A program made the position numbers and the translations under genes. DNA of 64,000 nucleotides from Oscillospiraceae bacterium (lineage in GTDB: Bacteria; Bacillota; Clostridia; Oscillospirales; Ruminococcaceae). Shown here piece after piece: positions 6,937 through 20,285 of this stretch. The stretch covers positions 186,001 to 250,000 of the forward strand of contig JAJQDP010000006.1 in NCBI GenBank assembly GCA_021202155.1, written 5' to 3'. How positions within the stretch are numbered: the first letter of the stretch is position 1; each line of letters starts with the position of its first letter. The notes under the pieces are model-generated. The model did no database searches. It was not told the origin of the DNA and saw nothing but the letters and a program-made list of their open reading frames with translations.

Positions 6937-7764
6937 CTATTCAGCCGTAACTGTGACGACTTCTGACTCTATGCCAGTAGCTTCAATCTTGAAGTCATAG
7001 CTCACGCCGGACTTGAGACCCGTGATGTTCACTTTATGCTTGGAAGTTGTGCCAGCGACCTTCCACTCGTCGGAGGAGGAATTTTTCCAGTAAATAGTGT
7101 ATGTTGCGTCGTCAACTATCCCATCCCACGAGAGCTTGATCTTGCCTAAAACGGTCTCGCCGGTGAGGTTGTAGGCTTCGCGAAAGCCATGGTACGAGGC
7201 GTTGCAATATTCGAGTACAGTTTCATCATAAGTGGAATCCAACCAGTTATAGAGCTGATAATATACGCCACCCTGGACGAAAACATAGCTTCCTGCACCA
7301 ATATCTTTACAGAAATAAACCTCAGTTCCATTGTCAAGAGTTGTCACAATTCCGCTGACCTTTGCCTTATAGACATAACCCTCTGTTTCCGATTTGCCGT
7401 CTTCACCCATTATGAAGCTACGAAGCTCCAATACCTTTTCATCGCGTTTAAAAGTAATAGACACATAATCCGGGTCGACGTAAATACTGATTTCATTTAA
7501 GTCAACGCCGTCAGGAAGATAGACTCCGTCCATCGCATAATAGAGATAACCCAAAAGTCTGCTTTCATAGTAGATTATGTGGTCGGTAGCAAAGTCCGTT
7601 TTGAGCCAATCGATATACTCTATCAATTCGGTCAAAGAGTCGAATTCAATTCCTCTTGTATCCCAATCTGTCGTTTCCGTTCCATCATCATCCGCCCAGA
7701 CCATTGTGGTCATCAAGGTGATGAGTAGGAGTCCTGCTAAAACTGTTGCCAATAACTTTTTCAT
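6937..7764 (-). CDS. Secreted protein with C-terminal fibronectin type III domain
   Basis: 275-residue exported protein. A signal peptide covers about residues 1-25 (MKKLLATVLAGLLLITLMTT, then an AxA-like site). The middle is acidic and unrecognised. The last 70-odd residues form an FnIII-like beta-sandwich (KIKLSWDG..ATYTIYWK..ITGLKSGVSYDFKI). The start at 7764 follows AAGGAGGAATT; an upstream in-frame extension to 7803 lacks a ribosome binding site. It is the third exported product in a row on this strand, 153 bp after the lipoprotein gene, so it may belong to the same regulon. Function unknown. Confidence 0.82.
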   Translation of the reverse strand: MKKLLATVLAGLLLITLMTTMVWADDDGTETTDWDTRGIEFDSLTELIEYIDWLKTDFATDHIIYYESRLLGYLYYAMDGVYLPDGVDLNEISIYVDPDYVSITFKRDEKVLELRSFIMGEDGKSETEGYVYKAKVSGIVTTLDNGTEVYFCKDIGAGSYVFVQGGVYYQLYNWLDSTYDETVLEYCNASYHGFREAYNLTGETVLGKIKLSWDGIVDDATYTIYWKNSSSDEWKVAGTTSKHKVNITGLKSGVSYDFKIEATGIESEVVTVTAE

Positions 7765-7866
7765 TATAATTCCTCCTTCGATTTGCAATAAAAATTGCTT
7801 CATACTTGTAATACACTTCAGGTGCGAGAATTATTGCAGAAATCAGAAAAAATTTTGAAGTTTTTT

Positions 7867-7888
7867 GCCCTCCGGGTGGGCGGAGGGC
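7867..7888. other. Intergenic GC hairpin
   Basis: Perfect 8-bp stem GCCCTCCG/CGGAGGGC with a 6-nt loop, 29 bases after the end of the lipoprotein gene at 7917. The expected T run on the minus strand is replaced by an A run, so it is not a standard terminator. Confidence 0.5.
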
Positions 7889-7916
7889 AGAAGTTATTTC
7901 TCCTCTTTTCTGACCG

Positions 7917-8714
7917 TTACTCAGCAACCTCATAGTTGCCGTTGATATAGTCATTAAGCTTTGCAGTTATGGCTGATTTTGCGGCAGAAGTAAGTCCAAC
8001 TTCGTCATATGCGGCTAAAACGCCGGAAATATCATCTGTGGTGATTCCTGCTTCGATGTAATCCTCAATGGAATGCTCATATACCCAATACAGAGAATAG
8101 AGATTGTCTTCCTTGCGAATTGCATTGTCAGAAGCAAAGTACTCAGCTACTGCCACATCATCGCCCGAAAGAAGCAAATTAATCTCTTCATCAGTCAATT
8201 CGTATTCTGAAATTCCCAATTGAAGGCTTTTAAGAGTTTTCCTGACTGTTTCATCGGGAATCTCAAAATACTTAATGAACGAGTATAAGTTAGCAGCTTC
8301 ACTGACGGATGTATACAAACCATCTGATGTTGAATAGAGTGCAACCCACTCGTAGGCAGCATCCCATCCAACCATATTGCAAAACGAAGCATCAATACCG
8401 TCCAGTTTATAATTAACCATCATGTAAAAAACATGATTCTCGTCACCACCAGAATTTTCTATAGATTTAAACGGTTCAGGCATAACATCGTATGTACCGT
8501 TCCACTCTTCATCTTCGGCAACGTCGGAAGACTCATTTATAGATTCCGATCTACTATCTTCTATAATCGACTCATCATCGACGCCAATATCGCTACCCGT
8601 CTCGATTTCGGTCGATGACAAGATTTTATCACTACCATTTGACGTGTCGCCACAAGCAACAAAAGCAGACATAATCAGCGTGGTAGATAACAATATTAGA
8701 AATATCTTTTTCAT
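7917..8714 (-). CDS. Lipoprotein of unknown function
   Basis: 265-residue protein with a lipoprotein signal peptide: a basic start, a hydrophobic core and lipobox AFVAC with the cysteine at about residue 21. A Ser/Asp/Glu-rich linker follows to about residue 70, then an unrecognised globular domain. AGGGGGAATTATAATG gives a clear start. It is 12 bp downstream of the M23 peptidase gene, so the two are almost certainly one operon. It would be anchored outside the membrane beside that cell-wall enzyme; a helper or substrate-presenting role is only inferred. Confidence 0.82.
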   Translation of the reverse strand: MKKIFLILLSTTLIMSAFVACGDTSNGSDKILSSTEIETGSDIGVDDESIIEDSRSESINESSDVAEDEEWNGTYDVMPEPFKSIENSGGDENHVFYMMVNYKLDGIDASFCNMVGWDAAYEWVALYSTSDGLYTSVSEAANLYSFIKYFEIPDETVRKTLKSLQLGISEYELTDEEINLLLSGDDVAVAEYFASDNAIRKEDNLYSLYWVYEHSIEDYIEAGITTDDISGVLAAYDEVGLTSAAKSAITAKLNDYINGNYEVAE

Positions 8715-8726
8715 TATAATTCCCCC

Positions 8727-9686
8727 TTATTGTGAAACCGTAAATTGAACATTCGGAAATACATATGTCGGGTCAATAGTGTTAGAGGTACTAAAATATG
8801 TCCCATATACATAACCTGCTGTATTTAGATCATAATGTAAATGGAATGCATTAGGACTTCCTTTATCACTTACAGTTCCTACTTGCTCTCCTGTTGCAAC
8901 ATACTTTCCAAGGTAAATGTTACTAGAAATATCCATGTGTAAATATCTGCTTGTTAATCCGTTTTCATGTAATACAGCGACACATGTAATACCATCGCTA
9001 AACAGCTCACAATATTTAACAGTTCCCGCAAGTGTGTTATAAACTGACCGACCCTTTATGGCTGTTTTGCTTCCAATAATATCTATTGCGTAGTGGTACT
9101 TGTCGGTGCCAGAACGATATTCACCATATACGCTTGAAAGGCAAGCGTCGTTTTCTGTATCAGTAAACATGTACGTAAACGGCGAAGTCGCATTTATTGT
9201 ATATGTACCAATAACCTGAACTTCAGAACTGGAAGTATTTAATATTCGTATGTATTTGACACCCGGTTCTTCTATCGTCAATGTGGCAACGAATAATCCG
9301 TTTGAAGCTGTCATGTACTGATAACCAGATGTTGCGCTATACACTCCCACTCTGATTGATGCTGAAGCCAATGTGTAAGACAGGTTAAAGATGACAGTAT
9401 CACCTTCAGACATAAAAACCTTGTCTTCTACCACCATTGCTGAACCACTTGGAATTGTCCATACAATCTGTGTTTCACCAGCTGTTGCATTAACAGAATA
9501 ACCGTCCAACGTAGAAACTTCGCCAATTATATCCCCTGAAATATCAACATCAGTTTCTATAGACCAGGTTTCTGCCTCCGAATATTCAGTGGCATGAGTT
9601 GCTGGCAACGCTGTTGCATATGTTACAATAAGTGTCATTGCCAACAACATTGATGTGAATGCCTTGCATATTATTCGTTTGTTCAT
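8727..9686 (-). CDS. Exported M23 family metallopeptidase
   Basis: 319-residue exported protein with an N-terminal signal peptide (about residues 1-32) and a beta-rich N-terminal region. The C-terminal LytM/M23 zinc peptidase domain keeps HYAID (HxxxD ligands), the SRYLHMD segment and the HLHYD (HxH) motif. Such enzymes cut peptide bridges of peptidoglycan. The ATG at 9686 is the best start but its Shine-Dalgarno (GAAGGG) is 15 bases away; an ATG at 9701 abuts it instead, so the exact start is uncertain. It is first gene of the exported operon, behind the promoter at 9789-9817. Confidence 0.88.
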   Translation of the reverse strand: MNKRIICKAFTSMLLAMTLIVTYATALPATHATEYSEAETWSIETDVDISGDIIGEVSTLDGYSVNATAGETQIVWTIPSGSAMVVEDKVFMSEGDTVIFNLSYTLASASIRVGVYSATSGYQYMTASNGLFVATLTIEEPGVKYIRILNTSSSEVQVIGTYTINATSPFTYMFTDTENDACLSSVYGEYRSGTDKYHYAIDIIGSKTAIKGRSVYNTLAGTVKYCELFSDGITCVAVLHENGLTSRYLHMDISSNIYLGKYVATGEQVGTVSDKGSPNAFHLHYDLNTAGYVYGTYFSTSNTIDPTYVFPNVQFTVSQ

Positions 9687-9731
9687 TATTGTTACAAACA
9701 TCCCTTCAAAATTATATTCAGCCCCGCGACC

Positions 9732-9764
9732 CTTTCCACTAACCCGTACGCTGAAAGTGGAAAG
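9732..9764 (-). other. Inverted repeat in the M23 leader
   Basis: Nine-bp perfect inverted repeat CTTTCCACT (9732-9740) and AGTGGAAAG (9756-9764) with a 15-nt loop, inside the untranslated leader of the M23 gene. The sequence ACTTTCAGC also found in the tandem repeats at 9820-9876 occurs here in the opposite direction. It may be a leader hairpin or a further operator. Confidence 0.55.
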
Positions 9765-9788
9765 TCTCGGCAAGTGGACTGTAAGCTC

Positions 9789-9817
9789 ATAATATCAGAA
9801 GGATAATAAGCTGTCAA
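9789..9817 (-). promoter_or_regulatory. Promoter for the M23-lipoprotein operon
   Basis: Minus strand -35 TTGACA (9812-9817), 17-bp spacer, -10 TATTAT (9789-9794). The -35 box ends two bases from the first 19-bp repeat. Confidence 0.78.
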
Positions 9818-9819
9818 CC

Positions 9820-9876
9820 AACTTTCACGAACTGCAAAAACTTTCAGCAATTGCAAGAACTTTCACCAACTGCAAG
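9820..9876. repeat. Three 19-bp direct repeats between divergent promoters
   Basis: Units at 9820-9838, 9839-9857 and 9858-9876 follow AACTTTCAnnAAyTGCAAr with no gap between them. A 19-bp period is close to two helical turns, so bound proteins would line up on one face. The array fills the space between the -35 boxes of a minus-strand promoter (2 bp away) and a plus-strand promoter (10 bp away), the expected position for an activator site serving both. Confidence 0.8.
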
Positions 9877-9886
9877 TCAAAATCTA

Positions 9887-9915
9887 TGGACATGAGAAAA
9901 ATTAGATGCTACAAT
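9887..9915 (+). promoter_or_regulatory. Promoter for the small secreted peptide gene
   Basis: Plus strand -35 TGGACA (9887-9892), 17-bp spacer, -10 TACAAT (9910-9915), each one base off the consensus. Start of transcription would be about 60 bases before the ATG at 9979. Confidence 0.68.
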
Positions 9916-9978
9916 TATATCTATCACAGCAAGGTAAAAGCCTAAGCTATGAAATAATACAATTAAGAGGTAAATACT

Positions 9979-10188
9979 ATGAAAAACTCAACAAGAAAAC
10001 TACTCGCAATACTCGCAACCATAACAATGGCACTTTCAGTCACTGTCAGTCAAGCTCCGCCATCTACCGACCTTTCCATTCCGCCTGAAGAAGTTGTCGA
10101 AGCTGAAGAAGATTCAGAGGACAGAGAGCCTGACTGTGAGCCAAATTGTGAAGATGATTACGAAAAGGATGGTATCAACAAATATTAA
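9979..10188 (+). CDS. Small secreted acidic peptide, candidate signal precursor
   Basis: 69-residue product with a signal peptide (KNSTRKLLAILATITMALS, likely cut near VSQA at about residue 26) and a very acidic tail rich in Glu, Asp and Pro, with two cysteines spaced DCEPNC and the end DGINKY. GAGG lies eight bases before the ATG, and a good promoter is upstream. Its stop codon shares the four bases TTAA with the stop of the convergent HTH-TPR regulator gene. The arrangement fits a pro-peptide for an RRNPP-type regulator; that function is inferred from context only. Confidence 0.65.
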   Translation: MKNSTRKLLAILATITMALSVTVSQAPPSTDLSIPPEEVVEAEEDSEDREPDCEPNCEDDYEKDGINKY

Positions 10189-11123
10189 GATAGATACTCG
10201 TCAATCAGCTTTTTAATGTTTTTGGCAAGAGTCGGAGATACGCGAGTATACTTTGCCATTAATTCGGTAAGTTCAAGAGCGTCATAAGCAAGTCTCTTAG
10301 CCTCTGCGACATCTCCAATCTCGTTCCGTCTTGCAAGAGACCATGCACAATTATACATAGTCTGTGGCAACGTACGTTGAATACCCGTATATTCGTGCCA
10401 GTAAATTCCATCACGTGCCACAGCGATGCTCTCATTATATTGTCCCGCAAGTCCATACATCTTAGAAAGATTGTAACAGAGAATAATTAAATAATTTGCT
10501 ACAACTACCTTGTCTTCGATGTAAAATTCCATAAAGCCTTTAACATGGCTATCAATTGCAATTGCTGTCTCTAACTGTCCAAGTTCAGAGTATGCAATTG
10601 CAATTTCGCTTAAAATCTGGCACTCCATATACGTCATATACAGTGGCAGATTATTCGGACGATAGTTTACAGCCGTCATGCGAAGCGCGTTCTCAAGCCT
10701 CTTGAGTTCTTCCGCGACAGAAATTTTATTGTCCTTTCGAGATAGTTCAGTTTCAAGCACAATCAGCCTTTGTTCGTTGGTAAAAGAAATATTGCGGCTA
10801 TCCTTGTTGATTCTATCACGTGTTTCGCGCACGATTCTCCAAGCCTCAACCCTGTTACCCAAAACATCTGCCTGATTAGCCTGACGTATCATTTGCCGGA
10901 CTGAGTAGTCATCCTCACTGATTATCTCATTGATAGAATCGGTCGACATCCCCAATCTCTCAAAAAGGCTGGGAATGTAGCTTCTTTCCCGAGTTCCAGC
11001 AGTGCCATTCTCAATTCTTGAAAGTGAAGAAGCACTGCAAATCCCAAGACAGAGATCCTCCTGGCTAATTTTGAGCTCCTTGCGGCGGTCTTTTATCAGG
11101 TTTCCAATCAAAACTTTATCCAT
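10185..11123 (-). CDS. HTH-TPR transcriptional regulator, RRNPP/PlcR-like
   Basis: 312-residue cytosolic regulator. Residues about 5-60 form an XRE-type helix-turn-helix (DRRKELKISQEDLC..SLSRIENG). The remainder is all alpha-helical with TPR-like pairs (AIAYSELGQLETAIAI, KMYGLAGQYNESIAVA). This is the plan of RRNPP regulators such as PlcR and Rgg, which bind imported peptides through the TPR part. The ATG at 11123 has GGAGGA seven bases upstream; the frame extends to a TTG inside that site. It has its own promoter (11152-11180) and is convergent with the small secreted peptide gene. Confidence 0.85.
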   Translation of the reverse strand: MDKVLIGNLIKDRRKELKISQEDLCLGICSASSLSRIENGTAGTRERSYIPSLFERLGMSTDSINEIISEDDYSVRQMIRQANQADVLGNRVEAWRIVRETRDRINKDSRNISFTNEQRLIVLETELSRKDNKISVAEELKRLENALRMTAVNYRPNNLPLYMTYMECQILSEIAIAYSELGQLETAIAIDSHVKGFMEFYIEDKVVVANYLIILCYNLSKMYGLAGQYNESIAVARDGIYWHEYTGIQRTLPQTMYNCAWSLARRNEIGDVAEAKRLAYDALELTELMAKYTRVSPTLAKNIKKLIDEYLS

Positions 11124-11151
11124 AGTACTGTCCTCCAATCCTGTTTTCTCT

Positions 11152-11180
11152 ATTTTACCACGTTCCTCCCCTCATTTCAA
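11152..11180 (-). promoter_or_regulatory. Promoter for the HTH-TPR regulator
   Basis: Minus strand -35 TTGAAA (11175-11180), 17-bp spacer, -10 TAAAAT (11152-11157). Confidence 0.62.
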
Positions 11181-11185
11181 GCGAC

Positions 11186-11209
11186 AAAAAAGCCCGACGA
11201 ATCGGGCTT
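11186..11209 (-). terminator. Terminator of the pgk-tpiA-gpmI operon
   Basis: Eight-bp perfect stem AAGCCCGA/TCGGGCTT (11190-11197, 11202-11209) with a 4-nt loop, followed by a T run on the minus strand. It lies 22 bases past the gpmI stop codon. Confidence 0.9.
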
Positions 11210-11231
11210 CTCTTGATATGACGTGATTAAC

Positions 11232-12800
11232 TTAAATCATGCTCTCTTCCCAGCAATCGGGAGAAGTGAGACCGAAGAGGGTGGCTACTGTCGGGGCGAC
11301 GTTGGCAAGACCGAAGTTGCCGTCCTTGATCTTCCAGTCGTGGTCGTTATCATAGATGATGAACGGAACGGGATTGAGGGAGTGGGCGGTTCTTACCTGA
11401 ATCTGACCCTTCTTGTTCTTTTCAAGCATCTCATCGGCATTGCCGTGGTCTGCGGTGATAAGAACGGTGACGTTCAGTTCATCCGCAACCTTCAGGACTC
11501 TTGCGATTCCGAGGTCAACTGACTCAACGCCGGTGATAGTGGCATCAAGGTTTCCGGTGTGACCGACCATGTCGCCGTTAGGGTAGTTGCATCTGATGAA
11601 GTCGTACTTTCCACTGCGCATAGCATTGATGAGGTCGTCGGTGATCTCTGCAGACTTCATCCAGGGACGCTCATCGAAGGAGACGTTATCGGAAGGGATT
11701 TCCTTGAAGGTTTCGAGCTCTTCCGAGAACTTCTCCGACTTGTTGCCATTCCAGAAGTAGGTCACGTGACCATATTTCTGAGTCTCGGAGACAGCGTACT
11801 GTCTCAAGCCATGAGCAACCAAAAGCTCAGAAAGGGTGTTCTTTATTTCCGGAGGATTTACGAGGAACTTTTCGGGGAGCTTGAGGTCTCCGTCATACTG
11901 GAGCATTCCGGCATAGATGACATCCGGGACAACTCCCCTGTCGAATGCTGTGAAGTCCTTGTTGTCAAATGCCTTTGAGATTTCGAGGGCACGGTCGCCT
12001 CTGAAGTTAAAGAGTATAACAGAATCGCCATCATTGATCTTTCCTACCGGCTCGCCGTTCTCAGCGATGACAAATGCCGGCAAATCCTGGTCGATGACGC
12101 CGTCGATTTCACTGCGGTAGGTCTCGATAGCCTCTTTAGCGGACGGGAACTGTCTTCCCTGACCGTGAACGTGGGTGTTCCAGCCGGCTTCAACCATGCC
12201 CCAGTTTGCCTCGTATCTGTCCATGGTTATCTTCATTCTTCCGCCACCGGAAGCAATCTTTGAATCGAATGTAGAGTCATTGAGAGAGTTAAGAAGAGTC
12301 TCAAGCTCATCGACATAGACGAGTGCTGAGGTCGCGGGAACATCTCTTCCGTCAAGTAGGATATGGCATCTTACATGCTCAACTCCGCACTCCTTAGCCT
12401 TGATAATCATCTGCTTTAAGTGAGAGATGTTGGAGTGGACGTTGCCATCAGAGAGAAGTCCCAAGAAATGAAGGGTTGAATGGTGAACCTTGCAGTTAGA
12501 AACGAGCTCATTCCATGTATCGGATTCAAACATCTTTCCTGACTCGATGGACTCGTTTACAAGCTTTGCGCCCTGAGAGTAAATCTGACCGCAACCAAGT
12601 GCGTTGTGTCCGACCTCGGAGTTGCCCATGTCATCATCAGAAGGAAGTCCGACAGCGGTTCCGTGAGCCTTGAGTCTGGTATTAGGACGCTCCTTAAGGA
12701 GCTTATCAAGATTGGGGGTATTGGCAAGTGTTACAGCATCTCCAAGGCCGGTCTTTGAGAAGCCGACACCGTCCATTACTATAAGTACAACAGGTTTCAT
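11232..12800 (-). CDS. gpmI: 2,3-bisphosphoglycerate-independent phosphoglycerate mutase
   Basis: 522-residue manganese-dependent enzyme converting 3-phosphoglycerate to 2-phosphoglycerate. The metal-binding opening MDGVGFSKTG, the catalytic serine in DDDMGNSEVGHNALG and the late ITADHGNADEM metal site are all present. The ATG at 12800 follows AAAGGGGA; a longer open frame to 13019 overlaps tpiA and is not coding. It is last gene of the pgk-tpiA-gpmI operon, 14 bp after tpiA. Confidence 0.97.
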   Translation of the reverse strand: MKPVVLIVMDGVGFSKTGLGDAVTLANTPNLDKLLKERPNTRLKAHGTAVGLPSDDDMGNSEVGHNALGCGQIYSQGAKLVNESIESGKMFESDTWNELVSNCKVHHSTLHFLGLLSDGNVHSNISHLKQMIIKAKECGVEHVRCHILLDGRDVPATSALVYVDELETLLNSLNDSTFDSKIASGGGRMKITMDRYEANWGMVEAGWNTHVHGQGRQFPSAKEAIETYRSEIDGVIDQDLPAFVIAENGEPVGKINDGDSVILFNFRGDRALEISKAFDNKDFTAFDRGVVPDVIYAGMLQYDGDLKLPEKFLVNPPEIKNTLSELLVAHGLRQYAVSETQKYGHVTYFWNGNKSEKFSEELETFKEIPSDNVSFDERPWMKSAEITDDLINAMRSGKYDFIRCNYPNGDMVGHTGNLDATITGVESVDLGIARVLKVADELNVTVLITADHGNADEMLEKNKKGQIQVRTAHSLNPVPFIIYDNDHDWKIKDGNFGLANVAPTVATLFGLTSPDCWEESMI

Positions 12801-15056: not shown

Positions 15057-17657
15057 TTAACGGTCCTCGCGGAGCATTTCCATGATGGAATATTTATTTA
15101 TACTCAGTTTTGACCCGAAGCAGATTGCAAATGTGATGAGGAATACAATAGCAAGTATCGCTATCAGCAACGGCACCGTCAGCCCATATCCCGCCAGTGT
15201 CGAGAACATAGTCCCAAGCACCGCAATCGGGCTTGTACCCTCAAGTATAACCGAGATATTCATCACGAGATAGTATGCAATATAGCTCACCACCGCCACC
15301 GCAATCGCAATAACGCTTCTTAAAGCGGCTCTTCTGCCAAGCTCAATATTGCGCTGTCTGCGAGACATGCCGATTGCCTGCAAAATGCCATAACGTCGTT
15401 TTTCGCTTTCAGTCTCAAGCCTTAATGTGCTCACAAGAATCAGAAGCACCACTATCGCAATGCACACGCCGCTTATGGTGGTCATAATCAGCGACTGCTG
15501 GTAGACCTGTGCGTTTGCATAGTTGATTTCACGGAGGTTAGACAGCACGAAATAGTTTTCGTTAATTCCCACTACCGTTGTAAGGTAAATCTGGTTTATA
15601 ATATTTATCATTGCCGCGTCTGCCGAAAGGTCGCCGGCGTTCATGTCGGTAAAGATATACGCTTCCTGATAGCCAACTTCTTGCTGACCTCTGAAGAAAC
15701 GCCAGTTGTTAGTCCACCATTTGGTGTTTTCTGGAATCTGATTGATAAGGTTCTGAATCACTGAATTTGAGCAGATAACATAGTAATCGAGAGTTTCGAG
15801 CGTAAACTTATAATCTCCCAAGCGGTCGGTCTCCAACAGAGAAACGAGAGTGTTCTCTCTGTCAATAATTTGCAATGAGTCTATGTCTACAGTGACAGTT
15901 GCCAATTCAGAGTTCAGAAGGGTGTCGGGCTCGTACATTTCTAACATACTGCGGTCAACAAATTCATATTCATAGGCGACAGACAACGTTATATCCGAGT
16001 AGTCAAATGTTGAGTTGTTTGCAATATAGCTTGATGATACAACCTGAACTATAACGCTTTCGCCGTTCTCAAATGCTTCTCTGTCGACTCCCTTTGTATC
16101 GACATACTTCTTGATGTCCTCCCATTCCATAGCGATTACTCTGCCATCAATGTCAATTAGACTGCCGTCATCCGTCGAGGTTACAATAGCATCAAAGTTG
16201 TTAAAGCCGACAAAGTCCGATATGCCTGGAGCGGAAAGAATCAGGTCTTCATAGTCGGATGTATTTGCCAATTCGCTGACAGGGATTCCGTCCTGCTGAC
16301 AGATATAGTAGGACCAGCGAGATGCCCAGTAGTTATATTCGCTTGCAGGTTCTGCTATATTGATAGTCGTAAACACTGCCGAAACGCATAGGAGTGTCGC
16401 CATAAGCATAATAAGTACTCTTCTGAAGCTAACAACGACTTTGTTCTTGCTTCTCTGCATTCCCATTCTGCCGGTAAGCGGAGTTGCAAGAGCAACCTGG
16501 AAAGTAATCATCCTGACAGCCAGAATTCCGACTATCCAGAGAGCAAGTGCCATGAAAAGATAATTCCACGGGATGCTGACGGCTACGTCAACAGAACCGG
16601 AATATACACTCACGCCAAGAAGAAGCTTGACGCCTAAGAATCCAAGAAGTATGCCTAAGACAACCGCCGGAATTGCAAGCATAAGAGTTTCGATTAATAT
16701 GAGAAGTCTCAGCTGACCTTTAGACCCGCCAATACTCCTGAATCTGACGATTCGCTTGACTTCAACCTGCATCTGCAAGATGTAAATCATGACGACCGCC
16801 AATATAGTAATCGCTAAAATAAGTGCAAGATAGACCATATTGGTCTGCGCCGCTTCTGTCTCCATATCGACAACCGGATTTATTGAGACAGTTCTGAATG
16901 AAGAACCCTCACGGACGCTGTAAAGATACCTGTTTACATCGCTTTCAGCAGTGCTTTCCATGCCCGATTTGACGGTGAAGAAATAGGTTTTGTCGTGGGT
17001 GTAAACAATATACTCACTGTTCCGAAGCCTGAGCTCCGCTTCGGCGACAATATCCGCCATCGATTCCTCTGATATGATTGCGGTATTCAACGTCGAGTCA
17101 ACGGTCCAGAGACCGGTGTATTCGCTGACAGCACCGACAATTCTGAAGGTTCTTTCAATGGTGACACCTTGCGTCTCGTCTTCGTTATAGAACACAAATT
17201 GCAGAGTGATTGAAGAGCCGACGTTGTAGTTGATTTCGGAAAGGGTTGCCGATTCAATCGCTATCTCGTCTACATCGTTCGGCATATGCCCGCTTTCAAG
17301 CCTGATTCCCATGTCGACAAGGCTTTCGTCGACAGTGCCGACATCAACACTGCCGGTTACCATATACGACACCATAACCGATGCCGAACCGTAGTTGACG
17401 CTCGTCCCGACATCCTCTACCCAATCTTCGCTTTCAAGATACTCCAAATCGCTGTCGATGCCATCCGTAATAGCCCCATACCACGAGCCGTATGTATCAA
17501 GCCGGAGCTGTGAGTTGGTTTCTGCAATGCTTGAGGTATAGCTAAGAAGTATTATCGCGAAAGTGAACGATACAAGCAGGACGAAGAAAATCAGGAGGGA
17601 TTGACGTTTTCTTCGTTTTATGCCTTCAAATGCGAGACCGAATATGGTTTTGAACAT
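15057..17657 (-). CDS. FtsX-like ABC transporter permease, copy 1
   Basis: 866-residue membrane protein. There is one N-terminal transmembrane helix (residues about 20-45), a large extracytoplasmic domain, a block of three helices near residues 275-395, a fourth helix, a second large outer domain, and three C-terminal helices ending GSKLSINKYSIMEML. This is the duplicated MacB/FtsX plan. The ATG at 17657 is chosen because the paralog uses the same codon behind a good site; a GTG at 17666 would overlap the upstream stop. No ATPase gene is adjacent, so the partner must be encoded elsewhere. Confidence 0.85.
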   Translation of the reverse strand: MFKTIFGLAFEGIKRRKRQSLLIFFVLLVSFTFAIILLSYTSSIAETNSQLRLDTYGSWYGAITDGIDSDLEYLESEDWVEDVGTSVNYGSASVMVSYMVTGSVDVGTVDESLVDMGIRLESGHMPNDVDEIAIESATLSEINYNVGSSITLQFVFYNEDETQGVTIERTFRIVGAVSEYTGLWTVDSTLNTAIISEESMADIVAEAELRLRNSEYIVYTHDKTYFFTVKSGMESTAESDVNRYLYSVREGSSFRTVSINPVVDMETEAAQTNMVYLALILAITILAVVMIYILQMQVEVKRIVRFRSIGGSKGQLRLLILIETLMLAIPAVVLGILLGFLGVKLLLGVSVYSGSVDVAVSIPWNYLFMALALWIVGILAVRMITFQVALATPLTGRMGMQRSKNKVVVSFRRVLIMLMATLLCVSAVFTTINIAEPASEYNYWASRWSYYICQQDGIPVSELANTSDYEDLILSAPGISDFVGFNNFDAIVTSTDDGSLIDIDGRVIAMEWEDIKKYVDTKGVDREAFENGESVIVQVVSSSYIANNSTFDYSDITLSVAYEYEFVDRSMLEMYEPDTLLNSELATVTVDIDSLQIIDRENTLVSLLETDRLGDYKFTLETLDYYVICSNSVIQNLINQIPENTKWWTNNWRFFRGQQEVGYQEAYIFTDMNAGDLSADAAMINIINQIYLTTVVGINENYFVLSNLREINYANAQVYQQSLIMTTISGVCIAIVVLLILVSTLRLETESEKRRYGILQAIGMSRRQRNIELGRRAALRSVIAIAVAVVSYIAYYLVMNISVILEGTSPIAVLGTMFSTLAGYGLTVPLLIAILAIVFLITFAICFGSKLSINKYSIMEMLREDR

Positions 17658-17663
17658 GTTTAT
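17425..17663 (-). repeat. 239-bp exact repeat, copy 1 (second copy 20010-20248)
   Basis: The first 78 or so codons of the two permease genes, with a few bases of leader, are identical over 239 bases, while the rest of the genes has diverged. This points to recent gene conversion or a very recent partial recombination between the paralogs. Confidence 0.93.
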
Positions 17664-20242
17664 CACCTGTCTTCTCTTAACATTTCCATGATGGAATACT
17701 TATTTATACTTAGCTTCGAGCCGAAGCAGATTGCGAATGTTACCACAAACATAACCAGTAGCATTATAAGAAGCACAGGCGTTGTTAAGCCATAAGTCGC
17801 AAGAGCTGTGAACAGTGTTGAAATAATGGCAGTCGGGCTTACACCTGTAATAAGACTTGAGATATTGAGAAGCAAGTAATATCCCAGATAGCTGAAAACT
17901 GCCACAACTACCGACACAATGCTTCTCACCATAGATTTCCGAATAAGCTCAATATTCCTCTGCCGCTTCGACATTCCGATTGCCTGCAATATGCCATATC
18001 GTTTCTTTTCGCTTTCGGTTTCGAGCCTCAGTGTGCTTACAAGAATCAGAAGCACCACAATCGCTATGCACACGCCGCTCACAATAATCATGATGATAGA
18101 TTGCTGGTAAACCTGGGCATTGGCATAGTTGATTTCTCTTTGGCTGTTGAGCCTGTAGAAGAAAACATCTTGTATATCATTTGTAGGATCTTTTGTCAGC
18201 TTCAGGATATTCGACATTGCAGTATCGGTTGCAAGGTTCTCGGCGTTTGTATTTGTGTAAACCAAAGCTTGGTAATACTCTGCCTCGCTTTGACCGTGAT
18301 ATAACATTACGTCGTCGATATTCCAAACCTTGTTTTCGGGGATTTCGTCAAGGATATTCTGGAGAAGTGCCTTTGAACATATGACAAAATCGGTGTCAAA
18401 CATAGCAGTACCGTTTCCGGCAAATTCGAATGTATCAGAGATAAACTCCATAGTGAATGGCAACGTATCACTGATAGTTGGAACTGTCTGTAAAGAAGCG
18501 ACATTTACTGATATGCTTACCAACTCCGATGGATCTTCACTGAGAACATAGCCATAAACACCCATACTATTTGCATAGTCGATATTGACGGTGGCATCAT
18601 CGTCGACTTCGAGCGCAGTTTCTCCCACGCCTTCTACAGTCTGAACAATAACCGATTCGCCATTTTCATATTCGGTTTCATCTACACCGGCAACGTCAAG
18701 GAACTTTGCTACATCTTCATAATCCATTACAATCACGCTTGCATTCATCGCCGCGTCGCTACTGCCAGTTGTAAGAACAGAGTAGAAGCATGAGAAGGCT
18801 ACTACATCAGTAACCCCGGGAGCCGATGAAATCTCGGATAACGTACTGTTATCAAGATAAACCGCAACATTGTTATGACCTTGATATGGATAGAAGCAAT
18901 ATGACCACTTTGAAGTCCATTCCTGATAGTTGTTCAGCGGCTCAGCTACGTTTATTGTCGTGAAGATGGTAGAAACAGAGAGAAGAATCGCCATTAGCAT
19001 TATAAGGACACGGCGGAATTTGCCATAGAAGTTCGACTTTTTGCGTTGCATTCCCATTCTTCCGGTGAGAGGAGTTGCGAGGGCTACCTGAATGGTGAGC
19101 ATTCTGACGAGAAGCACTCCCACAATCCAGACGGCAGCCGAGGTGAGAAGATAGTTCCATGGGAGACTTACCGCAATATTGACCGAGCCGGAATAGACAC
19201 TCAGCCCAAGAAGAGCCTTGATTCCGACAAGTCCGAGCAAAGTTCCCAACAGAAGAGCCGGAACGCAGAGCATAAGTGCTTCCACAAGAATAAGCAGTCT
19301 GACCTGACCTTTTGATGAGCCAATGCTCCTGAGCCTTACAATCTTCCTGACATCCGATTGCATTTGCAGGATATAAATCATGACGACCGCCAACAGAGTT
19401 ACAGCTAAGACAAGCCAAACGTAGAAAGTATTGAGCTGAGCCTCTTCGGCTTCCATAGACATGACAGAGTTTACGGAGACATATCTGACGTTCAGGTCTT
19501 CCCTTACGCTCCACAGATAACTGTTGACCTCCGATTCAAATGTTCTTTCATAGCCGGATCTGACGGTGAAGAAATATGTATACTCGGGAGAAACGCTTGC
19601 CTCCGAGTCGAGAGATTCTGTCGCCTCAGCCAACAATTCGTTTATGCCATCTTCCGAGAGAATAGCTTCGTTGAGCGAGGCGTTTGTGTCCCAGAGACCC
19701 GTGTACTGCTTGATAACTCCGACAATCTTATAGGTCTTCTCTATAACCGTGGATTCTTCACCGGATTCCGAATAGAAAGTAAATCTCAGAGTGATTGAAG
19801 AAGCGGAAGCTAAGCCAAACTCAGTAAGCTCAGTCGATTCTATAGCAATTTCGTTGCTTGCCTTGGGAAGCCTTCCACTTTCTAAGATTATGCCCATATC
19901 AAGCATGGAGTCGTCGACTGTTCCGAAATTCAAAGATCCCATAACAGTATCGCCAAGCACGGCATTGGTAGCCCCATAGTTTACGCTTGTTGCGATGTCG
20001 TCAACCCACTCTTCGCTTTCAAGATACTCCAAATCGCTGTCGATGCCATCCGTAATAGCCCCATACCACGAGCCGTATGTATCAAGCCGGAGCTGTGAGT
20101 TGGTTTCTGCAATGCTTGAGGTATAGCTAAGAAGTATTATCGCGAAAGTGAACGATACAAGCAGGACGAAGAAAATCAGGAGGGATTGACGTTTTCTTCG
20201 TTTTATGCCTTCAAATGCGAGACCGAATATGGTTTTGAACAT
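17663..20242 (-). CDS. FtsX-like ABC transporter permease, copy 2
   Basis: 859-residue paralog of the following gene, with the same membrane layout. The N-terminal 78 or so residues are identical at base level, the central and outer domains have diverged, and the C-terminus FAICFGSKLSINKYSIM is again the same. The ATG at 20242 has AAAGGAG at good spacing. Its stop lies 5 bp before the ATG of copy 1, so the two are translated from one message and could form a heterodimeric permease. A promoter is at 20286-20314. The substrate is unknown; family members export peptides, lipoproteins or antibiotics. Confidence 0.85.
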   Translation of the reverse strand: MFKTIFGLAFEGIKRRKRQSLLIFFVLLVSFTFAIILLSYTSSIAETNSQLRLDTYGSWYGAITDGIDSDLEYLESEEWVDDIATSVNYGATNAVLGDTVMGSLNFGTVDDSMLDMGIILESGRLPKASNEIAIESTELTEFGLASASSITLRFTFYSESGEESTVIEKTYKIVGVIKQYTGLWDTNASLNEAILSEDGINELLAEATESLDSEASVSPEYTYFFTVRSGYERTFESEVNSYLWSVREDLNVRYVSVNSVMSMEAEEAQLNTFYVWLVLAVTLLAVVMIYILQMQSDVRKIVRLRSIGSSKGQVRLLILVEALMLCVPALLLGTLLGLVGIKALLGLSVYSGSVNIAVSLPWNYLLTSAAVWIVGVLLVRMLTIQVALATPLTGRMGMQRKKSNFYGKFRRVLIMLMAILLSVSTIFTTINVAEPLNNYQEWTSKWSYCFYPYQGHNNVAVYLDNSTLSEISSAPGVTDVVAFSCFYSVLTTGSSDAAMNASVIVMDYEDVAKFLDVAGVDETEYENGESVIVQTVEGVGETALEVDDDATVNIDYANSMGVYGYVLSEDPSELVSISVNVASLQTVPTISDTLPFTMEFISDTFEFAGNGTAMFDTDFVICSKALLQNILDEIPENKVWNIDDVMLYHGQSEAEYYQALVYTNTNAENLATDTAMSNILKLTKDPTNDIQDVFFYRLNSQREINYANAQVYQQSIIMIIVSGVCIAIVVLLILVSTLRLETESEKKRYGILQAIGMSKRQRNIELIRKSMVRSIVSVVVAVFSYLGYYLLLNISSLITGVSPTAIISTLFTALATYGLTTPVLLIMLLVMFVVTFAICFGSKLSINKYSIMEMLREDR

Positions 20243-20248
20243 GTTTAT
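20010..20248 (-). repeat. 239-bp exact repeat, copy 2
   Basis: Direct-repeat partner of 17425-17663, offset by 2585 bp. Recombination between the two would delete one permease and leave a single hybrid gene. Confidence 0.93.
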
Positions 20249-20285
20249 TTCTCCTTTCGTCTCCATTCAATTAAATCATAGTAAT

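Follow-up and report, generated by a model that had tools for sequence, protein, structure and literature searches.

A candidate RRNPP/PlcR-like peptide-signalling cassette with exchangeable exported cargo in an Oscillospiraceae bacterium

The pro-peptide gene of the PlcR-PapR system (Bacillus cereus group) is co-directional with the gene for its regulator. The Rgg/SHP and ComR/ComS systems of streptococci also pair a regulator of helix-turn-helix plus tetratricopeptide repeat (HTH-TPR) fold with a small peptide gene beside it; as described in the text of PMC9765709, which also treats orphan or 'eavesdropper' RRNPPA receptors, their pro-peptides are smaller than the one considered here and exit by PptAB. 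RRNPP_Detector, as set out in PMC10075063, looks for a receptor of 250 to 500 amino acids (aa) and a pro-peptide of 10 to 100 aa at a distance of -60 to 400 bp. Here, we report a locus in a 64,000-nucleotide (nt) stretch of an Oscillospiraceae bacterium genome (contig JAJQDP010000006.1; the window, whose numbering is used throughout) that is probably an RRNPP-type cassette for signalling between cells, representing a PlcR-like subfamily of Oscillospiraceae-type gut bacteria. The genome comprises 2.25 Mb in 54 contigs.

The locus fits the size and distance rules of the RRNPP_Detector candidate subfamilies given in PMC10075063. Its regulator is 16 to 19% identical to that of PlcR-PapR, from which it differs in that the pro-peptide gene is convergent and overlapping rather than co-directional, and in having a long acidic Cys-bearing tail on the small protein, a divergent cargo promoter and a structured leader RNA. 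Unlike the Rgg/SHP and ComR/ComS pro-peptides, the small protein has an N-terminal Sec-type signal. Literature searches returned no paper describing RRNPP systems of Ruminococcaceae, Ruminococcus or Oscillospiraceae, and neither 'Ruminococc' nor 'Oscillospir' appears anywhere in the main text of PMC10075063 or of PMC12700828 (a structural tree), whose figures or supplements may list relatives.

A first-pass annotation of the window had described a 312-residue XRE-HTH/TPR regulator gene convergent with the gene for a 69-residue exported acidic peptide, the two sharing TTAA, and had placed the small gene divergent from an operon for an M23 peptidase and a lipoprotein, with a third exported product of fibronectin type III (FnIII) kind beyond. 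The coordinates of the open reading frames (ORFs) and the Pfam searches agree with this layout, to which we add two promoters, three operators (9820-9875) and a leader (9714-9786) that had been missed. The features are as follows.

10185-11123, minus strand: regulator gene, 312 aa, XRE-HTH plus TPR (ORF with ATG at 11123; HTH_3; predicted PlcR-like model)
9979-10188, plus strand: small exported acidic protein, 69 aa, candidate pro-peptide (ORF; relatives at the same place; nonsynonymous below synonymous rate, pN < pS)
9965-9971, plus strand: ribosome site AAGAGGT of the small gene (sequence)
9887-9915, plus strand: candidate peptide promoter, TGGACA 9887-9892, 17 bp, TACAAT 9910-9915 (sequence; layout kept in relatives)
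9858-9875, minus strand: predicted operator copy 1, TTGCA-N6-GAAAGTT (pattern search)
9839-9856, minus strand: predicted operator copy 2 (pattern search)
9820-9837, minus strand: predicted operator copy 3, adjoining the cargo -35 box (pattern search)
9789-9817, minus strand: candidate cargo promoter, TTGACA 9812-9817, 17 bp, TATTAT 9789-9794 (sequence; layout kept in relatives)
9714-9786, minus strand: 73-nt structured leader RNA, start of the cargo transcript (alignment, folds, pair counts, covariance model)
8727-9686, minus strand: exported M23 peptidase, first cargo gene (Peptidase_M23 above cut-off)
7917-8714, minus strand: lipoprotein, second cargo gene (ORF; orthologue at the same place in locus L058)
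6937-7764, minus strand: exported protein with FnIII-like C-terminal part, possible third cargo gene (fn3 just below cut-off; relatives in other cargo clusters)

The TTAA common to the stop codons of the convergent regulator and small genes lies at 10185-10188. Pfam matches above cut-off were HTH_3 in the regulator (E 1.5e-6) and Peptidase_M23 in the first cargo protein (E 3.5e-11); fn3 in the third exported product fell just short (E 5.4e-5, 23.8 bits against a cut-off of 25), the lipoprotein gave weak sub-threshold matches only, and the 69-aa protein matched no family.

Regulator homologues (E<=1e-15) were found in 21 of 149 genomes, 18 of them in the genus with the window's genome counted. 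One gene, split into two pieces, takes up two of the 46 rows of the homologue table, which thus lists 45 genes; 44 loci were examined with their flanks, and the remaining one (G068:C29), examined later, has no convergent small ORF. At 25 of the 44 loci (24 of 43 without the window), a small ORF of 52 to 79 aa with a ribosome site and an export-type N-terminus (export signals being judged by a hydrophobicity rule) runs convergent to the regulator and overlaps its stop. Both the 83% and the 76% identical regulator relatives carry it. The window's genome has three regulator paralogs (69, 42 and 33% identity): next to the 42% one, a small-protein relative (34% identity, E 4.2e-6) is encoded convergently at the same place, overlapping the regulator stop, and the other two have no adjacent small ORF. 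Because a paralog in the same genome shows the arrangement and it recurs in 25 of 44 loci, it is more than chance.

A profile search at E<=1e-20 placed regulators in 15 of 396 family genomes. All 20 loci outside the genus were examined, and at 11 a convergent small ORF lies -8 to +17 nt from the regulator stop; one of the 11, L150, coincides with L085 of the 44-locus set. The pairing of regulator and small ORF at one position, which the first-pass annotation had proposed as a check, is thus found inside and outside the genus. Named records with relatives (17 loci, reached with one conserved stretch) are metagenome-assembled genomes of Oscillospiraceae bacterium, Ruminococcus sp., Clostridiales bacterium and uncultured Clostridia. 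A 3,892-bp contig in an Alistipes bin (L120) holds a regulator beside the same small protein as L117 and is probably mis-binned.

Nonsynonymous rates were below synonymous rates in 14/14 pairs of small ORFs (one pair with two changes only, one with saturated dS), and by this comparison the small ORF is a coding sequence under purifying selection. The proposed pairing of an RRNPP-type regulator with an exported small protein and exported target genes gains from this result. In an alignment of 26 small proteins (the 25 plus L111), all have a hydrophobic export-type N-terminus and an acidic tail; near the C-terminus most have a Cys with acidic residues after it (in the near group, EPxCxPNC or a motif close to it), and some diverged members (L069, L073 and L085) have no tail Cys. 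At the start of the small-gene transcript (9921-9955, plus strand), an imperfect inverted repeat, possibly a 5' hairpin, seems by eye to be kept with changes in L046 and L047.

The regulator model (predicted local distance difference test [pLDDT], 91.4) had PlcR-PapR as its top match in both Foldseek and VIA-align; the Foldseek hits include ComR (5jub, E 5.9e-5) and Rgg2 (4yv6, E 8.2e-4), and Rap and NprR are also among the structural matches. The model thus predicts a PlcR-like receptor fold of N-terminal HTH plus C-terminal TPR, in line with the RRNPP/PlcR plan assigned to the regulator at first pass. A phmmer search against solved structures gave weak matches only (best E 0.042).

The two promoters, for peptide and cargo, face away from each other, both with a 17-bp spacer, and three 19-bp repeats (TTGCA-N6-GAAAGTT) occupy the gap between their -35 boxes (9820-9875). 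An exact search of the genome gives five sites for the motif (control, 0), three at this locus and two ahead of the gene for the 42% paralog itself (L003 1390-1430, G000:C45:55791-55829); from operators so placed before a paralogous regulator gene, one peptide system of this genome could possibly control the other. Across 17 loci of leader-bearing clades, the -35 boxes are 31 to 35 bp apart with one operator, 55 with two and 69 with three. Repeats vary by clade (by eye: CTTnC-N7-GnAAG, CGTTGC-N7-GCAACG, TTTGC-N7-GCAAA and others), and 14 of 24 loci clearly beat shuffles in an inverted-repeat test (6 or fewer of 300), among them the single-copy site of the 76% relative at 1/300; the 83% relative, at 189/300, does not. 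We regard these repeats as predicted binding sites of the regulator, placed so as to serve both the small protein and the exported cargo.

An extended operator plus TTGACA (<=3 mismatches) has four sites in the window's genome, one at this locus, one following the orphan paralog and two ahead of FtsX-type permease genes, from which we infer a small regulon. Over seven genomes this search gave 14 sites (control, 0), including one 3-mismatch site in G029. The paralog's operator, CGTTGC-N7-GCAACG, occurs exactly at one place; allowing one mismatch adds three, about the control level (3). Two tandem FtsX-type permease genes in the window (15057-20266, minus strand), by eye like cargo permeases of other cassettes, have a TTGACA promoter box with a TGAAAGTT half-site about 15 bp before it and no leader. 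On the reverse strand of G006:C5 (L138, 2023-2700 and beyond), the operator-TTGACA unit occurs without mismatch away from any regulator and drives an ORF like an extracytoplasmic function sigma factor (by eye), then an ABC-exporter-like ORF.

In the signalling cassette that we favour, the small protein would be exported and then trimmed, and its C-terminal Cys-acidic part would be taken up through an oligopeptide importer, for which two SBP_bac_5 proteins above cut-off in the genome are candidate binding proteins. The imported peptide would bind the TPR domain, and the regulator, once bound, would work through the operators to increase both its signal and the cargo. The regulator, as we infer, would sense the small protein, and it would activate rather than repress, since the operators adjoin the -35 boxes.

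Several results weigh against this reading. On the side of the fold, the RNPP_C match of the regulator is below threshold (E 0.018, 15 bits against a cut-off of 26.5), all TPR models fall under their cut-offs, and other TPR proteins score near PlcR in the fold comparison. The window's operator palindrome is reached by 110/300 shuffles and so does not clearly beat them. To our knowledge, the short signals of known RRNPP systems offer no parallel to the long, very acidic, Cys-bearing tail. A mirror-tree comparison with the regulator was dropped as proof of recognition, since the signal part correlates as highly (r 0.69 to 0.73) as the tail or C-terminus (0.59 to 0.73). Finally, 19/44 regulator loci lack the small ORF: seven paralogs of 68 to 71% identity (0/7 with an adjacent small ORF), one frameshifted relic (L062, in the raw sequence) and eleven more diverged loci. 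The first-pass annotation had counted close homologues without an adjacent small ORF against its proposal, and in part this applies: the seven paralogs are such homologues, whereas the 83% and 76% relatives carry the ORF. The seven, the window genome's own copy excepted, form a separate branch beside the window's on the regulator tree. They resemble the eavesdropper receptors described in the text of PMC9765709 in having no adjacent pro-peptide gene, and differ from them in retaining the operator-TTGACA unit right behind the regulator.

In the best-surviving alternative, the regulon includes the small protein as a further exported product, which might for example partner or inhibit the secreted peptidases, and the regulator senses something else. 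The operator region shared by small gene and cargo, the character of the tail and the seven near paralogs that work without an adjacent small gene would suit it. We nonetheless hold it unlikely, as the small gene tracks the regulator and not the cargo, staying at the regulator 3' end, in other genera too, while the cargo varies widely, and the predicted PlcR-like fold also points away from it.

The 5' regions of both peptide systems in the window's genome align just past the promoter. A leader model built from fourteen pattern-found, aligned leaders gave 18 copies in 11 of 31 genus genomes, and no further copies in the 149 relatives or the sample of 396 family genomes, where stricter filters may have lost weak matches. 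Every copy has a regulator gene no more than 3.6 kb away. For 14 the distance is at most 0.5 kb; the remaining four, likewise preceded by operator and TTGACA, are placed ahead of a second unit that one clade carries. With 18/18 genus copies near a regulator, a general element was rejected. The small gene is intact at 17/18 leader loci and a relic at one; mapped onto the regulator tree, the distribution of the leader takes two changes to explain and that of the small gene ten.

Six of eight folded leaders had z scores below -2, and two were not clearly stabler than shuffles (L054, -1.58; L055, -0.33). Pair counts gave 90.2% of cells paired in the MAFFT alignment (35 to 53% when slid) and 87.6% in the model-fitted alignment (33 to 57% when slid; 16 cells changed on both sides). 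The latter has 18 distinct rows, one of them a weak second match in L058 (17.6 bits, E 0.76) that we took as chance. Pairs changed on both sides fail to beat shuffles (56 and 62 of 500 reach the count); other measures do. Helix P2 has many G-U pairs and compensatory changes. Helix P1, not predicted by RNAalifold on the MAFFT alignment, rests on single-sequence folds and pair counts, with one of its five pairs unpaired in 8/15 counted rows. A 6-nt apical-loop palindrome, in several versions, is present in 17/17 distinct leaders (shuffled mean 8.6; 0/5000 reach 17, relatedness of the leaders being ignored). In CGG-type loops the covarying bases are only two apart and therefore cannot pair within one hairpin; a two-molecule contact or a DNA site is needed.

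Rfam gave one tRNA only for the whole window at gathering score, nothing for L003 and L006 at E<=1, and for window 7500-11300 at E<=1 one weak match off the leader (rsmX, 11187-11261, E 0.11). A known riboswitch was rejected, there being no match at the leader at E<=1, and literature searches on RNA motifs, leaders or protease control found nothing matching, the RNA-motif papers concerning other riboswitches. The leader is apparently an undescribed folded RNA that most likely sets stability or translation of the cargo message and perhaps responds to a partner. We suggest tentatively, as a rather doubtful extension, a second layer in which this regulatory RNA, found only with the pheromone system, acts by its self-complementary apical loop or by a ligand at a conserved internal loop, so that cargo output depends on peptide and RNA; the loop may kiss between leader RNAs or with a partner RNA.

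The 73-bp leader might instead work at the DNA level, as a downstream binding site or a recombination site for cargo exchange. This we judge quite improbable: the palindrome in every distinct leader and the varying cargo behind one leader would be expected of such a site, and paired CpG transitions could also yield palindromes, but the G-U pairs and compensatory changes in P2 and the position right behind the -10 box argue for RNA, and no recombinase recurs in the cargo list of these loci (two recombinase-like ORFs, by eye, in L059 only). A reading of the small ORF as a frame open by chance or without coding function, the overlap being only an antisense transcript end, was already disfavoured and is barely credible, since pN < pS in every pair and the retention of export signal and C-terminal core beside diverged regulators outweigh the 19 loci without it, the relic included.

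Cargo behind the leader is of two types. The first comprises exported peptidases with FnIII-type proteins or lipoproteins: M23 in the window and L058, C39-like in L046, L054 and L055 (two of the three under the Pfam cut-off) and trypsin-like in L072 (under cut-off). In the second, FtsX-type permeases and ATPases accompany small Cys-rich proteins that are exported. The cell-wall remodelling programme read from the window at first pass is therefore too narrow, as the same promoter and leader elsewhere precede C39-like or trypsin-like peptidases or FtsX-type ABC transporters. Because the window and L058 are 66% identical in M23 and 64% in the lipoprotein, against 45% in the regulators, cargo and regulator have, by these identities, recombined or evolved at different rates. 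The window's M23 and C39-like peptidases elsewhere group together at 27% identity (L010, L058 vs L046, L054, L056, L062); what links them is apparently an N-terminal domain in common, in front of catalytic domains that have been exchanged. In L059, the recombinase-like ORFs lie behind FtsX permease and ATPase genes on the reverse strand, perhaps a mobile element beside the cassette.

Peptide signalling is little described in Oscillospiraceae-type gut bacteria, and this locus gives a receptor, a candidate signal, an operator and an output within about 4 kb. Our best reading is of a new RRNPP/PlcR-like pheromone group of Oscillospiraceae with exchangeable exported cargo, whose cassettes swap operator and cargo yet keep receptor and signal gene together, and with which alone the structured RNA is found.
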